This document shows, piece after piece, positions 1 to 58,357 of a DNA stretch of 64,000 bases. The stretch is from Streptomyces chattanoogensis. GTDB taxonomy: Bacteria; Actinomycetota; Actinomycetes; Streptomycetales; Streptomycetaceae. The stretch covers positions 62,001-126,000 of the forward strand of contig NZ_LGKG01000024.1 in assembly GCF_001294335.1 (NCBI RefSeq). Direction: 5' to 3'. Below the pieces are notes generated by a model, which searched no databases, had not been told where the DNA came from, and saw only the letters and a list, made by a program, of their open reading frames with translations. The translations under genes and the position numbers were made by a program. Every line of letters starts with the position of its first letter. The stretch's first letter is position 1.

Positions 1-583
1 GAGCCGATTCCGCGATCCACTCGGGCTCTCCGCCCATCTCGATGACCAGCGCCTCGGCGGCCATCCGCAGCTCCTCTGGCGCGGTCACCCCGAAGGAGCA
101 CCCGGCGAGCCGCTGGACGTCCACGGACGTGCCGGTGAACGTCATGGCCGGGTGCAGCGCGAGCGGCAGCGCGCCGGCCCGCGTGGCCGGATCGAGCACG
201 GCCGTTCCATAGCGCCCCGAGGTGTGCACCAGCAGCTGCCCCGGCCGTACGGCACCGGTCTCGGCGAGGCCGCGCACCAGGTCGGCGAGGGCGTCGTCGG
301 GAACGGTCAGCAGCACGAGGTCGGCGCGGGCGAGCACCTCGGCCGGGGCGACCAGCGGGACATCCGGGAGCAGCTCGGCGGCACGTCGTACGGAGGCGTC
401 GGAGACTCCCGATACGGCGACCGGCCGATGCCCTGCGAGCTGCAGAGATGCGGCGAGGGCGGGCCCGACTCGGCCCGCGCCGACGACTCCGACGGTGAGC
501 CGGGCGGGGCGGTCCTGGGCCGAGGGGGGTCCCCCCTGCTCGAGCGGAGCCGAGAACTTGGGGGAGGGTGGGTGTGCGTTCAC
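1..583 (-). CDS. DUF2520 Rossmann-fold oxidoreductase-like protein (partial, 3' end outside window)
   Basis: About 194 codons are visible and the gene runs off the left edge. The N-terminus, after a Pro-rich lead, has a Rossmann dinucleotide-binding loop (VGVVGAGRVGPALAASL near residue 30), then an LVLLTVPDDAL strand and an HTSGRYG segment. This is the layout of Rossmann-like/DUF2520 proteins, related to pyrroline-5-carboxylate reductase and ketopantoate reductase folds. The GTG start at 583 has a GGAAGG ribosome site about 11 bases upstream. In actinomycetes this family often sits before panC, which would lie outside the window. The exact substrate is not known for the family. Confidence 0.8.
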   Translation of the reverse strand, partial: MNAHPPSPKFSAPLEQGGPPSAQDRPARLTVGVVGAGRVGPALAASLQLAGHRPVAVSGVSDASVRRAAELLPDVPLVAPAEVLARADLVLLTVPDDALADLVRGLAETGAVRPGQLLVHTSGRYGTAVLDPATRAGALPLALHPAMTFTGTSVDVQRLAGCSFGVTAPEELRMAAEALVIEMGGEPEWIAESA

Positions 584-52457: not shown

Positions 52458-53333
52458 TCACATGAGTTGGAGCAGGCCTCGCAAGAGATCCCGACTCTCG
52501 GCCGGGCTCGGCCCCTCCCCCTGAAGACGGTCCATCGCCCGCGCGTACTGCGCCACTTCCTCGGGCTTGTCCACATACAGCGCGCTGGTCAGCTGCTCCA
52601 GATAAACCACGTCCGGCAGCCCCGATTCCGGAAAACCGAGCATGGTGAACGCGCCGCTCTCCGCGGCATGCCCGCCGAAGCTGAACGGCATGACCTGAAG
52701 GCGCACATTCGGCCGTTCGGACACCTCGATCAGATGCCGCAACTGGTCGCGCATTACCTCGCGTTCGCCGTACGGACGGCGCAGCGCCGCCTCGTCCAGC
52801 ACACAGTGGAATTCCGCCGGACGCTCGGCCACCAGCAGCTTCTGCCGCTCCAGCCGCAGCGCGACACGGCGATCTATTTCGGCGGCACTTGCCCCCGGCA
52901 TACCGCTCTTGACGACGGCCTGCGCATATCCCTCCGTCTGCAACAGCCCGTGCACGAACTGCACTTCGTAGTTGCGGATGAGCGAGGTCGAACCCTCCAG
53001 GCCGACATAGGTCTGGAACCAGCTGGGCAGCACGTCGGTGTAACTGTGCCACCAGCCAGTGGCGTTGGCCTCCCGGGCGAGGGAAAGCAGCGCGTCGCGC
53101 TCCTGCTGGTCCCCGACGCCGTACAGCGAGAGCAGATCCTCCACATCCCGCGCCTTGAAGCTCACCCGCCCCAATTCCATACGGCTGATCTTGGATTCGG
53201 AGGCACGGATCGAGTAGCCGGCCGCCTCCCGGGTTATGCCCCGCGATTCACGAAGCCTGCGAAGCTGCGCCCCCAGCAGAATGCGCCGCACCACCGAACC
53301 GCTCGACTCGTTTGCCGCCCCACTTGCGGACAC
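52458..53333 (-). CDS. XRE-family helix-turn-helix regulator with DUF5753 domain (locus C)
   Basis: A 291-residue protein. Helix-turn-helix QLRRLRESRGITREAAGYSIRASESKISRMELG (key part RESRGITREAA and SKISRMELG), then DUF5753 with SWFQTYVGLEGSTSLIRNYE and VHGLLQTEGYAQAV. GTG 53333 follows AGGAGG. It is divergent from the ATPase-domain gene at 53668, and a DUF397 gene follows that. This trio (XRE, anti-sigma-like ATPase, DUF397) matches WhiJ/AbaA-like regulatory sets of Streptomyces linked to development and antibiotic control. Confidence 0.9.
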   Translation of the reverse strand: MSASGAANESSGSVVRRILLGAQLRRLRESRGITREAAGYSIRASESKISRMELGRVSFKARDVEDLLSLYGVGDQQERDALLSLAREANATGWWHSYTDVLPSWFQTYVGLEGSTSLIRNYEVQFVHGLLQTEGYAQAVVKSGMPGASAAEIDRRVALRLERQKLLVAERPAEFHCVLDEAALRRPYGEREVMRDQLRHLIEVSERPNVRLQVMPFSFGGHAAESGAFTMLGFPESGLPDVVYLEQLTSALYVDKPEEVAQYARAMDRLQGEGPSPAESRDLLRGLLQLM

Positions 53334-53667
53334 TCTCACCCTCCTGTGACCCCGCCCCGTCCAATGGTGGGCCGCAGTCTGCCACGTTCGCGCTCCGTTG
53401 AGTGCTCGTGCGGTTACTGATATGTGACTTCCCCGCAAGCCCTCCACAGCGAGCCCGCAGAACACCGCCCGGATCCGCGGGAAATATCGCTGCGTATCCG
53501 CATCGCTCTACGCAATCAGGGCGCGTGCACGTGCATCTGCCCTTGCATCTGTCGTGGTCATTGGGAACCATAGGCGACGCACACATGCTCACTCGCTCGT
53601 GAAAGATCCGCCAGATCCGGCTGCCCGGCCAGGATCATGACGTCCGCGAACGCCAGGAGTGCCTCGC
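53334..53667. other. Divergent intergenic region (334 bases) of locus C
   Basis: No gene. It contains the 26-bp element at 53526-53551 (listed separately) and must hold the promoters of the XRE and ATPase genes. Confidence 0.6.
53526..53551 (+). promoter_or_regulatory. 26-bp locus C element, copy 1
   Basis: Palindrome TGCACGTGCA, overlapping two direct TGCATCTG repeats at 53532 and 53544 (12-bp period). It matches copy 2 at 54768-54793 at 24 of 26 bases and points toward the ATPase gene, whose start is 116 bases further on. Confidence 0.7.
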
Positions 53668-54195
53668 ATGGGGACCAGGGTTTTGACCATGCCCGAGCCG
53701 TTATGGCAGGGCCTTCCTCCCGTCGACCCCTTGTCCGTCTCCGGATCCGTGTCCTGCACGCTCCCGCCGCGGTACGAATCGGTCGGCGGTGCACGGAAGT
53801 TCACTCGCGAAACGCTCCAGGGCTGGGACCTGGACGAGCTCTTCGACGGGGTCGCCCTGGTGGTCTCCGAACTCGTCACCAACGCCCTGCGGCACGCGGT
53901 CCTCTCCCCCGCGGAAGCGCCCGCTCCCAGTACCTGCGTCCCCGAGCCGCGCACCCCGGAAGGAACCGTCGGCACCACCTCCGCCCGGCTCCATCTGATG
54001 CGCTGGTCCTCCCGCCTGATCTGCGCCGTACGCGACCCCAGCGACGCCTCACCGGTCGCCGCCGAGGCCGACTCGGCCGCGGAATCGGGCCGCGGGCTCT
54101 ACCTGGTGGAGTCCTTCAGCGACAGCTGGGGCTGGCACCGGCTGACCGGCGCCCTCCACGGCAAAATCGTGTGGGCCCAGTTCCGTCTCCCTTAG
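53668..54195 (+). CDS. ATP-binding protein of the anti-sigma/serine kinase (HATPase_c_2) type, with a TTA codon
   Basis: A 175-residue protein. FDGVALVVSELVTNALRHAV is the N-box, and SGRGLYLVESFSDSWGW the G-box region, as in RsbW/SpoIIAB-like kinases. A middle loop is Pro/Ala-rich and variable. ATG 53668 has AGGAG nine bases upstream; GTG 53659 is an alternative. Codon 12 (53701-53703) is TTA, so expression likely depends on bldA. The paired DUF397 and XRE genes suggest one regulatory module. Confidence 0.85.
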   Translation: MGTRVLTMPEPLWQGLPPVDPLSVSGSVSCTLPPRYESVGGARKFTRETLQGWDLDELFDGVALVVSELVTNALRHAVLSPAEAPAPSTCVPEPRTPEGTVGTTSARLHLMRWSSRLICAVRDPSDASPVAAEADSAAESGRGLYLVESFSDSWGWHRLTGALHGKIVWAQFRLP

Positions 54196-54382
54196 CCCCG
54201 CACCCCGCGCACCAGAACCCAGAACCCCAAAAGGCCCTGCCCAGCGCCTCAACCGCCGGTCGGGGCCTTCGCCGTACGCGAGGGGGGACACCCGTCGGCC
54301 ACGCCGACCGCACCGAACCCGCTGCCACCCTCCGGGAACACCCTCCACCCCCGCCACGTTGTGGCCTGCAAGGGGCGCTCAC

Positions 54383-54396
54383 ATCCCCTAGGGGAT
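54383..54396. promoter_or_regulatory. Perfect 14-bp palindrome ATCCCCTAGGGGAT between convergent genes
   Basis: Self-complementary sequence in the 274-base gap between the ATPase and DUF397 genes. A second GACC...CCCCTAAGGG stretch follows. It is placed after both genes, so its role is unclear (terminator core or protein site). Confidence 0.35.
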
Positions 54397-54469
54397 CTGT
54401 TCGACCAACCCCTAAGGGTCGGAGCAGTACAGAGCACCACGTCATACATCAGACGTCGGACCTGCGCCC

Positions 54470-54709
54470 CTAATCCCGTACGAGGTGATCGAACTCCCCG
54501 TCCTTGACGCCGAGCAGCATCGCCTCGACCTCCGCCGGGGTGTAGATGAGCGCCGGTCCGTCCGGGAAGCGGGAGTTGCGTACCGCGATCTCGCCCCCGG
54601 GCAGCTTCGCGAATTCGACGCACGAGCCCTGGGAATTGCTGTGCCGGCTCTTCTGCCAGGCCGCATTGTGGAGCTCCGTTGCGGCCATGCCGTTGTATGC
54701 GTGGGGCAC
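54470..54709 (-). CDS. DUF397 domain-containing protein (locus C)
   Basis: A 79-residue DUF397 protein with WQKSRHSNSQGSCVEFAKLPGG and AVRNSRFPDGPALIYTPAEVEAMLLGVKDGEFDHL. It is a different subtype from the DUF397 proteins of loci A and B. GTG 54709 follows GGGAGAG; ATG 54688 is an alternative. The 26-bp element copy 2 lies 58 bases upstream and reads toward this gene. Confidence 0.9.
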   Translation of the reverse strand: MPHAYNGMAATELHNAAWQKSRHSNSQGSCVEFAKLPGGEIAVRNSRFPDGPALIYTPAEVEAMLLGVKDGEFDHLVRD

Positions 54710-54767
54710 AGGGCTCTCCCAGTGAGAAGGGGCGTCAACTGCCGGGGATCATAGCCGTGTTCACATG

Positions 54768-54793
54768 CAGATGCATGCGCAGATGCACGTGCA
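54768..54793 (-). promoter_or_regulatory. 26-bp locus C element, copy 2
   Basis: On the minus strand: palindrome TGCACGTGCA overlapping two TGCATCTG repeats with a 12-bp period, two mismatches from copy 1. It is oriented toward the DUF397 gene, as copy 1 is toward the ATPase gene. Confidence 0.7.
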
Positions 54794-55794: not shown

Positions 55795-56052
55795 TCAGCG
55801 AGCAGAGGGACCCGCCATCCGGGAGGCGTACGGCAGCAGCGCCATTTCCCGGGCGTTCTTGATCGCACGGGCCAGCTGCCGCTGCTGCTGCGCGGTGACC
55901 CGGGTGACCCGGCGGCTGCGGATCTTGCCGCGGTCCGAGAGGAACTTCCGCAGCAGATCGGTGTCCTTGTAGTCGATGTACGTGATGCCCGCCGCCTCCA
56001 GCGGATTGGGGCGGGGCGCGGTCGTGCGGCGGGGGTCGTGGCGTCGCGGCAT
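55795..56052 (-). CDS. rpsR: 30S ribosomal protein S18, cysteine-free paralogue
   Basis: An 85-residue S18: [26 protein letters not shown] and [29 protein letters not shown] (key part [16 protein letters not shown]). No cysteine is present. It is the last gene of the minus-strand zinc-starvation set (L33, L31, CobW-like, S18). Such copies replace zinc-binding versions when zinc is scarce. Confidence 0.95.
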
Positions 56053-56165
56053 GGGGCTTCCTTGTGTGTGGGTGGGGGCGAGCGGGCGGTGGGCGGGCGG
56101 AGGCAGGGCCGGATCCGTACGCAAAACGGCCGATTCGGGTCCGCTTCAGCAGGGCTGCGGCCGGC

Positions 56166-57314
56166 CTACGAGACCGGGTCGAGCAGCTCGTCGAACGCGG
56201 GCGGCAGGCTCTTCCAGGCCCTCGGCCCGCCCGCGTACTCGGCGTCGGTGAGCAGACAGGACTCCAGCAGGGACGTCAGCCCCTCCCGGTCGAGTCCGGG
56301 CGAGACGAAGACCAGGTGCTGGGCGCGGTCGCCGTGCTCGGGGTGCCAGTCCAGCGCGGCGGCGGCCCGGCGCATGGGCGGCACCATCTCCCAGGCGGCG
56401 TCCGGCAGCGAGACCAGCCAGGGCCCGGCGTTCTCCACACACAGCGCGCCGCCCGCCGCGTCCCAGGACAGCAGGGTGTCCGGCCGGTCGGCGAGCCAGA
56501 ACCGGCCCCGGCTGCGCGCGGCCGCGCAGGTCAGATCCTCCAGCGCCGTATAGAGCCGCTCGGGATGGAAGGGCCGGGTGTGCTGCCATACGAGCGTGGT
56601 GACGCCCTCCCCGTCGGCTTCCTGCGGCAGCAGCGCGCAGGCCGGGTGCTGCCGCGCCGCGGCCGCCTCCACGTCGAACCCGCCCATTGCCGCTGCCGCC
56701 AACTCGCCCGATTCCACAGGGATGTGACGGGCCGTGGGATGCAGTTGCGCCAGCAGGGCAAGGTCCGTGGGGTCGGCCGGCTCCTCCCCCTCCACGATCG
56801 CCAGCACCGGCGCGTACTCCAGCTGGCGGGCCCAGGTGTCGGCGACGGTGCGCTGATCGGAGGCGGCAGCTGCGAGCCCCGCCTCGGCGAGATCGTCACC
56901 GCACCCCAGACAGCACAGCACCAGCGCCGGATCGACGGCCGTGATCACCCCGGTCAGCACGAGATTCTCGCTCCCGCACGAGGTGATGACCTCGGCCATC
57001 GCCTTCGGCTCGACCGAGTCCCACAGCTCCACGATCGCCAGCCGGCACGTCCGGCTCGCGGCCAGCCGCTCCAGCTCGGGCACCAGGTCCTCGCGGAGCG
57101 CGCAGCAGGCGCAGTCGTTGACCAGCGGGGCCTCGCCGGTGTCGAGCGTGGCGCCGGCGTCGCGGACGGTGCGCCGTACGGTGCCCTCCGCCGCCGAGGC
57201 GAGATCGTGGTGGAGGGCGACGCTGCCGGGCACCACACGCAGCAGCCGCTCGACGGCGGTCCGCCGCGCGTCCGAGTGCAGGCCGCCCACCAGCACGACG
57301 TTGAGCGGATGCAT
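56166..57314 (-). CDS. CobW/COG0523-like protein with CxCC motif and degenerate P-loop
   Basis: A 382-residue protein of the COG0523 family, whose members deliver zinc by GTP hydrolysis. The metal motif is LVNDCACCALREDL (CxCC). The C-terminal CobW domain has HTRPFHPERLYTALEDL and SWDAAGGALCVENAGPW. The N-terminal loop reads VVLVGGLHSDARRTAVE, which lacks the GxxGxGKT lysine of a true Walker A. ATG 57314 overlaps the L31 stop by one base. Confidence 0.88.
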   Translation of the reverse strand: MHPLNVVLVGGLHSDARRTAVERLLRVVPGSVALHHDLASAAEGTVRRTVRDAGATLDTGEAPLVNDCACCALREDLVPELERLAASRTCRLAIVELWDSVEPKAMAEVITSCGSENLVLTGVITAVDPALVLCCLGCGDDLAEAGLAAAASDQRTVADTWARQLEYAPVLAIVEGEEPADPTDLALLAQLHPTARHIPVESGELAAAAMGGFDVEAAAARQHPACALLPQEADGEGVTTLVWQHTRPFHPERLYTALEDLTCAAARSRGRFWLADRPDTLLSWDAAGGALCVENAGPWLVSLPDAAWEMVPPMRRAAAALDWHPEHGDRAQHLVFVSPGLDREGLTSLLESCLLTDAEYAGGPRAWKSLPPAFDELLDPVS

Positions 57315-57565
57315 CAGCGGGCTTTCCTGCCGTAACGGCGCTCGAACCGCTCGACGCGGCCCGCGGTGTCCAGCACCTTGGCGGTGCCCGTGTAGAAGGG
57401 GTGGCTCGCCGAGGAGATCTCGACGTCGATGACCGGGTACGTGTTTCCGTCCTCCCACTCGACGGTCTTCTCGCTGGTCGCGGTCGACCGGGTCAGGAAG
57501 GCGTAGCCGGCGGACCGGTCGCGGAAGACGACGGGCGCGTAGGCGGGGTGGATTCCAGGCTTCAT
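57314..57565 (-). CDS. rpmE2: 50S ribosomal protein L31, type B (zinc-free)
   Basis: An 83-residue L31 with [33 protein letters not shown] and [10 protein letters not shown]. There are no cysteines, unlike the zinc-binding type A. It starts 8 bases after the L33 stop. Confidence 0.96.
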
Positions 57566-57573
57566 GGCCGTCC

Positions 57574-57738
57574 TCAGCGCTCCTCTCGGAAGGTCACGTG
57601 ACGGCCGGCGACCGGGTCGCACTTGCGCAGTTCCAGGCGGTCGGGGTCGTTACGGCGGTTCTTGCGGGTGACATAGGTGAACCCGGTGCCGGCGGTGGAC
57701 CGGAGCTTGATGACCGGGCGTAGTTCGTTGCGGGCCAT
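57574..57738 (-). CDS. rpmG: 50S ribosomal protein L33 (non-zinc type), probably leaderless
   Basis: A 54-residue L33: [32 protein letters not shown]. It has a single Cys, so it lacks the zinc-binding CxxC pairs. First gene of the minus-strand set. The promoter -10 lies only seven bases before the ATG, so the mRNA probably begins at or next to the start codon. Confidence 0.95.
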
Positions 57739-57745
57739 GCCAGGT

Positions 57746-57773
57746 AGTATACGCAAATGAATTCCATTTTCAA
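57746..57773. promoter_or_regulatory. Zur-like box overlapping the rpmG promoter
   Basis: TGAATTCCATTTTCA (57758-57772) fits the TGAAAATxATTTTCA type of Streptomyces Zur sites. The minus-strand promoter has -35 TTGAAA (57773-57768) inside the box, a 16-base spacer, and -10 TATACT (57751-57746). Zinc-bound Zur here would block rpmG and probably also rpmB in the other direction. Confidence 0.75.
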
Positions 57774-57815
57774 TAAGCCTCCGCCGGAGGCCCCGACCAC
57801 CGGAGGGACCGCACC

Positions 57816-58052
57816 GTGTCCGCCCACTGCCAGCTGACCGGCCGCAAGCCGGGCTTCGGCAAGACCGTCTCCCACTCACACCGCCGCACCCCGCGCCGCT
57901 TCGACCCCAACATCCAGCGCAAGCGCTACTGGCTGGAAAGCGAGGGCCGGCACATCCGGCTCACGCTGAGCGCCAAGGGCGTCAAGACCGTCGACACCAT
58001 CGGGATCGAGGCGGCCGTCGCCCGGATCCGCGCCCGGGGGGAGAAGATCTGA
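57816..58052 (+). CDS. rpmB: 50S ribosomal protein L28 (non-zinc type)
   Basis: A 78-residue L28: [31 protein letters not shown] with the conserved SHSHRRT core. The CxxC pairs of the zinc form are missing; one Cys remains. GTG 57816 follows GGAGGG. A small hairpin GCCTCC-GCC-GGAGGC lies in the leader (57776-57790). Its stop overlaps the rpsN start. Confidence 0.95.
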
Positions 58053-58357
58053 TGGCCAAGCAGAGCAAGATCGCCAAGAACGAGAAGCGACGCATGACCG
58101 TCGCCCGCTACGCGGCCCGGCGCGCGGTCCTCAAGGCCGTCATCCGCAATCCGCGGACGCCGCAGGAAGAGCGCGACGCCGCGCAGCGCGAGCTCTCCCG
58201 TCAGCCCCGGGACGCAAGCGCCACCCGGGTCCGTAACCGCGACAGCGTCGACGGCCGCCCGCGCGGCTACTTCCGCACCTTCGGCCTCTCCCGCGTACGG
58301 CTGCGCGAACAGGCGCACGCGGGCCATCTGCCGGGCGTGCGCAAATCCAGCTGGTAG
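58052..58357 (+). CDS. rpsN: 30S ribosomal protein S14 (long, zinc-free type)
   Basis: A 101-residue S14: [26 protein letters not shown], then [28 protein letters not shown]. It is the long form without the zinc CxxC of the 61-residue type. The ATG overlaps the L28 stop (TGATG), so the pair is coupled. Confidence 0.97.

Follow-up and report, generated by a model that had tools for sequence, protein, structure and literature searches.

A palindrome-plus-half-site element as a candidate operator of a WhiJ-like XRE regulator in Streptomyces chattanoogensis

Which regulator reads the two near-identical 26-base-pair (bp) elements that stand in front of the ATPase and DUF397 genes of a WhiJ-like module in Streptomyces chattanoogensis, and with what effect? 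The module lies in a stretch of 64,000 nucleotides (contig NZ_LGKG01000024.1, positions 62,001 to 126,000 of the forward strand), which we call the window and to which all coordinates refer. From comparative sequence analysis, we propose that the elements are quite probably the operator of the adjacent WhiJ-like XRE regulator, of the SCO3421 type, which would probably activate both the AbaA-like ATPase gene and the DUF397 gene. The features on which this proposal turns are the following.

52458..53333, minus strand: gene of the WhiJ-like XRE regulator, the predicted binder (Pfam HTH_31, 59.9 bits, and DUF5753, 203.3 bits)
Residues 43-56 of this regulator: predicted recognition helix, RASESKISRMELGR
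53526..53551, plus strand: predicted operator copy A, TGCACGTGCATCTGCCCTTGCATCTG, preceding the ATPase gene
53659..54195, plus strand: gene of the AbaA-like ATPase, predicted target of copy A (Pfam HATPase_c_2, 39.7 bits)
54470..54709, minus strand: DUF397 (BldB-like) gene, 79 amino acids, predicted target of copy B (Pfam DUF397, 68.5 bits)
54768..54793, minus strand: predicted operator copy B, TGCACGTGCATCTGCGCATGCATCTG, preceding the DUF397 gene

With a helix-turn-helix (HTH) XRE gene, a DUF397 gene and a HATPase_c gene all present, the locus is a complete whiJ/abaA/bldB-type cluster.

The element and its conservation in Streptomyces

Each copy consists of the palindrome TGCACGTGCA followed 8 bp on (9 in some relatives) by a TGCA half-site, and contains two TGCATCTG repeats. 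The original prediction of two 26-bp copies at these coordinates, agreeing at 24 of 26 bases and built on repeats whose starts lie 12 bp apart, is borne out by the sequence. Copy A lies 116 bases before the ATPase ATG at 53668, a start that is itself uncertain (GTG 53659, ATG 53668 or ATG 53689), and copy B lies 58 bases before the DUF397 GTG at 54709.

The combined sequence is rare. Specifically, TGCATCTGN4TGCATCTG at up to three mismatches is expected 0.29 times per window from 100 dinucleotide shuffles of the window, and was found twice, both times exactly; 2 of the 100 shuffles also gave two matches. Throughout the organism's own genome (9,129,105 bases in 217 contigs), these two copies are the only exact occurrences of this pattern, and the two exact matches to TGCACGTGCA-N8/9-TGCA both fall at this locus. 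The original prediction had proposed searching other Streptomyces as well, and there the element is present at up to two mismatches in 295 of 295 genus genomes, as against 5 of 295 for the reversed pattern, with two or more copies in about 227 of the 295 (counted from the search listing). These figures bear directly on the idea that the resemblance is due to chance or to a dispersed repeat. At two to three mismatches the own genome does hold nothing beyond background, and at up to three mismatches its 55 + 87 matches compare with 75 + 100 for the reversed pattern. However, the contrast between the element and its reversed control across the genus, together with the location of both exact own-genome copies in the module, makes this explanation hardly credible. 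A dispersed repeat unconnected with XRE and DUF397 genes was likewise rejected, the exact own-genome copies being confined to the module and the element recurring in XRE/ATPase/DUF397 modules of other families.

For alignment, we used 80 named Streptomyces loci, the best 80 of 388 that the XRE protein confirmed, originally found through the element; with the window this gives 81. At up to four mismatches, copy A is present in all 80 and copy B in 78, the stretches without copy B being those of L070 and L072, both on short contigs. Copy A has zero, one or two mismatches in 54, 16 and 11 of the 81 loci (window included), and copy B has zero to four in 78. The copy B alignment also comprises 78 sequences, L070 (a five-mismatch match that is probably no real copy) and L049 (near a contig end) being excluded from it. 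In ungapped alignments on the element, the 26 bp are near-invariant in copy A and nearly so in copy B, and conservation drops in the flanks, except for a block reaching to about 20 bp downstream.

This downstream block contains a predicted -10 box, and the element itself overlaps a predicted -35 slot.

53543..53548, plus strand: predicted -35 slot of the ATPase promoter, TTGCAT inside copy A, at element positions +17..22 (81 of 81 loci)
53566..53571, plus strand: predicted -10 of the ATPase promoter, AACCAT, 17 bp after TTGCAT
54771..54776, minus strand: predicted -35 slot of the DUF397 promoter, ATGCAT inside copy B (56 of 79 loci, L070 counted in)
54748..54753, minus strand: predicted -10 of the DUF397 promoter, TATGAT

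The predicted -35 slot coincides with the element's own downstream TGCA half-site, and the -10 follows exactly 17 bp on. The invariance of TTGCAT is partly by construction, as the loci were selected through the element; the -10 was not selected for, and a NANNNT sequence nevertheless stands at +40..45 of copy A in 81 of 81 loci (AACCAT in 64, AACGAT in 15, AAGCAT in 2). For copy B, NANNNT occurs at the same positions in 64 of 78 loci, with TATGAT in 61 of 78, and four more have it at +41. Thus, in Streptomyces the two predicted promoters share a fixed geometry with the element, a statement that we confine to this genus because the orientation of the half-site varies outside it. Such a fixed distance between -35 slot and -10 would also be expected if the element did not work as an operator at all and were simply the conserved core promoter of one sigma factor. 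We regard this as very unlikely: TGCACGTGCA, which is conserved most strongly, stands upstream of the -35 slot and is kept where promoter geometry and half-site differ, and the genome has no further instance of the combined sequence.

Occurrence beyond the genus and placement within modules

In an order-wide scan at up to three mismatches, 237 of 245 genomes match. We regard recurrent three-mismatch matches such as TGCTCGGGCAACTGGCCCTGCATCTG, seen in many genomes, as probably lying in coding sequence. Three matches that do not begin with TGCACGTG (L003, L121 and L126) have no XRE, ATPase or DUF397 relative within their stretches of 3 kilobases and were set aside as background. Of ten non-genus stretches with matches starting TGCACGTG, nine hold relatives of the XRE, ATPase and DUF397 genes; in the tenth, L154, at a contig start, the site is 57 bp from a DUF397 gene and is oriented away from that gene.

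A search starting from the regulator rather than from the element reaches further. Class-wide, a strong relative of the XRE protein (E up to 1e-50) is present in 113 of 345 genomes, and from the matches listed we took 60 non-genus loci by XRE similarity (about 56-64% identity), of which several share a genus and some share a genome. In these loci TGCACGTGCA is the commonest 10-mer, present anywhere in the stretch in 54 of 60 and within 450 bp upstream of a module gene in 49 of 60; no other palindrome of equal A/T content (4 A/T) occurs in more than 11 of 60. A 26-bp weight matrix, being blind to the N9 spacer, gave low scores to ten distant ATPase-linked XRE loci, all of which have the exact core with this spacer. 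What the loci share is the palindrome, often accompanied by one TGCA half-site at N8/9, and the conservation of this core extends far outside Streptomyces.

Placement was counted in 69 loci by scanning 450 bp upstream of genes located by phmmer hit coordinates for the core and four close variants, a procedure by which a few units, such as L261, L267 and L268, are probably misplaced. A core or close variant precedes 34 of 36 ATPase genes, 26 of 36 DUF397 genes that form separate units, and 6 of 6 units in which DUF397 stands directly before XRE; where DUF397 immediately follows XRE, it has no separate core (0 of 11). The site therefore tends to precede each transcription unit of the module.

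Several observations weigh against the operator proposal or narrow it. The loci are related to one another, and their counts are not independent. Eight of the 245 order genomes, all outside the family, lack the element at three mismatches; no core or variant was scored upstream of 10 of the 36 separate-unit DUF397 genes; and among XRE genes without an ATPase gene, the core lies upstream of the XRE in only 8 of 33. Six of the 60 non-genus loci lack the exact core, and five of these are orphan XRE genes (L252, L254, L259, L271 and L281) whose helix is near-identical but beside which neither a core nor a recognised ATPase or DUF397 gene was found; these orphans may act in trans on another locus. 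At class level, the short pattern is found in 93 of the 113 genomes with an XRE match (counted from listings) and also in 41 of the 232 without a strong one, which is background, and the reversed control pattern matches in many large genomes too; because genome size differs, this co-occurrence is supportive but weak.

Orientation and spacing vary as well. Among 80 exact cores in 70 non-genus loci, the half-site points toward the nearest module gene start in 7 and away from it in 14, half-sites flank the core on both sides in 21, none is found at N8/9 in 27, and the remaining 11 cores lie more than 500 bp from any module gene start. In an order-level group (L146, L148, L153 and L154), the site next to DUF397 likewise faces away from that gene, and the -10 outside the genus lies at TGCA+22 for 20 of 64 oriented elements and at +23 for 15. 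The original prediction that each element points toward its downstream gene thus holds in Streptomyces and fails as a general rule outside it. The operator claim depends on the palindrome, so the varied orientation leaves its probability unchanged.

Some of the 14 away-pointing cores face another divergent reading frame rather than a recognised module gene. In L263 and L273, the element and a CATGAT -10-like box face a divergent frame of about 210-300 amino acids that is no recognised module gene, and this frame is possibly another target.

The predicted binder and its paralogs

The organism's own genome holds 28 DUF5753 loci, some of them overlapping, and the exact core is found only at the window's locus and at 0 of the 27 others. 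In addition, the predicted recognition helix RASESKISRMELGR has a mean identity of 0.92 in 69 distant XRE proteins as against 0.56 for the C-terminal part, and own-genome paralog helices reach at most 0.71 identity to it (a few have the HTH missing from the aligned stretch). The closest XRE paralog, on contig C152 (339 bits), has a three-mismatch variant of the element between its DUF397-XRE unit and a divergent ATPase gene; this paralogous module (L213/L156, C152:25500-32500) carries the diverged element TGCAAGTGCATCTGCAAGTACATCGG. At the other 26 DUF5753 loci of the genome, nothing was found within three mismatches, and there are a few matches of four to six. The conserved helix and the related variant beside the nearest paralog both support, at the level of sequence, the earlier suggestion that the elements are the operator of the adjacent XRE regulator.

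Alternatively, the binder could be another WhiJ paralog or some unrelated factor in control of the module. BldB paralogs hetero-oligomerise across loci, according to the available part of PMC10294661, and no local core accompanies the orphan XREs that have the same helix. SCO3423 is among the sigma E binding sites under ethanol stress and SCO3424 stands in a sigma E regulon table, as far as the accessible parts of these sources go; other factors therefore act at the locus. Yet the element accompanies XRE homologs in different families and under different gene orders, the predicted recognition helix has been conserved together with it, and the exact core is missing from every other DUF5753 locus of the genome, so that we consider a different binder improbable and retain the adjacent XRE protein as the candidate. 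A structure prediction for this protein from 29 close sequences reached a mean predicted local distance difference test (pLDDT) score of 59.1, too low to support a search by fold, and a search of solved structures by sequence returned nothing credible for XRE or DUF397.

Do other WhiJ-type regulators have sites of their own? Relatives of the C152 paralog (5 loci) carry TGCAAG-type repeats with a period of about 12 bp upstream of DUF397, and an element-like form in 2 of the 5. In a second WhiJ-type paralog, whose relatives comprise 30 loci (L298-L327, 60-100% identity), the frequent words are CAGTGTGCCA (18 of 30) and ACACTTGGCAAG (17 of 30); both are absent from the own-genome copy of this paralog and from four relatives, among 11 loci inspected. 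Changed spacers accompany the HA-type helix found in the XREs of 6 distant loci and in the C152 paralog; we treat this as a lead only. A further paralog search gave a single extra ortholog and no motif. On the strength of the C152 repeats, the words of the second paralog and the changed spacers, we tentatively suggest, at somewhat less than even likelihood, that WhiJ-type modules use a private operator code, in which each regulator clade would match its helix to a repeated site peculiar to that clade and close to the ATPase and DUF397 promoters, and TGCACGTGCA with RASESKISRMELGR would be the ancestral, class-wide member from which the others arose. Among the relatives of the C152 paralog, locus L296 has about six tandem TGCAAGAAC-like units in a row, with a 12-bp period, before its DUF397 gene.

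Sign of control and relation to known WhiJ-type systems

How might the XRE protein act on these promoters? In the mechanism that we propose, it would recognise the palindrome and the half-site 8 (in some relatives 9) bp on, the half-site filling a weak -35 slot (TTGCAT or ATGCAT) 17 bp ahead of AACCAT in the ATPase promoter and TATGAT in the DUF397 promoter. Since the element lies over the -35 slot, the bound protein would span roughly -53 to -28, and from this promoter-proximal site at about -40 it would activate the ATPase and DUF397 genes. The DUF397 protein would then feed back on the XRE protein as a brake. By analogy, activation is the most likely sign of control, at slightly better than an even chance, because the paralog WhiJ9 activates its neighbouring gene.

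The same binder could exert the opposite effect, covering the -35 of the ATPase and DUF397 promoters and so repressing both until DUF397 or a ligand relieves the repression, and we hold this to be a serious possibility, although one clearly short of even. The element spans the predicted -35 slot in both copies, an overlap that would suit a repressor equally well and to that extent counts against activation, and a repression-relief model has been proposed for WhiJ and SCO4542 and is described for WhiJ in the available text of PMC4255298 and PMC6262351. Moreover, in all 10 loci of one distant group, a -10-like TAC(G/C)GT on the XRE side lies 9 bp from TGCA, as for autorepression. On the ATPase side of the same group, a -10-like CAT(G/C)AT lies 22-23 bp from TGCA in most loci, and the two spacings would fit autorepression combined with divergent activation. 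On the other hand, the weak -35 and, in copy A, the weak -10 suit an activated promoter, and WhiJ9 is needed for activation of its neighbour, as described in the accessible part of PMC10294661.

WhiJ9 of S. venezuelae offers the nearest comparison. According to the same portion of PMC10294661, it binds direct repeats beside its own gene and is required for activation of iosA, its site consisting of CGXXCTCAAC repeated three times in direct orientation, 113 bp ahead of the iosA start. Both systems combine a WhiJ-type XRE gene beside a BldB paralog with a divergent target and a multi-part, repeated site beside the regulator gene. They differ in that the present element is a palindrome with a TGCA half-site over a predicted -35 and occurs in two copies, before AbaA-like ATPase and DUF397 genes. 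The feature expected of a WhiJ-type operator, a repeated site beside the regulator gene, is thus found here; the CGXXCTCAAC repeats were looked for in copies A and B and were not found in either.

The surroundings of the module resemble a known region of S. coelicolor. Adjoining it at 55795-58357 is an alternative-ribosomal-protein-like cluster (S18, L31, L33 and others) with a CobW-like gene, as judged by eye from the translations, and we take these neighbours to match the SCO3425-SCO3430 region. We presume the locus to be of the SCO3421-SCO3423-SCO3424 type, an assignment made by gene content and neighbourhood. Within the module, the ATPase gene has an early TTA codon (53701-53703), TTA codons occur in 62 of 81 related ATPase genes, and translation of the ATPase may depend on the rare bldA transfer RNA.

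The corresponding S. coelicolor module includes the BldB-like SCO3424, its locus numbers being matched by gene content to the available text of PMC4255298, and that text describes no operator for SCO3421-SCO3423-SCO3424. Scr1/Scr2 (SCO4441/SCO4442) are likewise an XRE-DUF397 pair that acts as a transcriptional regulator, although a different paralog, and the S. lividans ortholog Cpb1 is reported to bind the chiA promoter; a type II toxin-antitoxin role has also been proposed for XRE-DUF397 pairs (all from the available part of PMC6262351). We found no description of the present site in the full-text literature searched, a collection without most subscription papers and without bioRxiv preprints.

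Streptomycetes have more than ten, and sometimes more than twenty, WhiJ-type regulators (PMC4255298, as far as its available text goes). Few targets of these regulators are known, and the literature searched yielded one operator, that of WhiJ9. The element described here provides a precise, deeply conserved candidate site, together with two candidate target promoters, for a WhiJ paralog that a review, in its available part, places in nearly all complex actinomycetes. Whether the protein binds, in which direction it regulates and what the BldB-like partner does can thereby be tested with short DNA duplexes and two reporters, and comparative sequence suggests itself as a route to the operators of other WhiJ paralogs.
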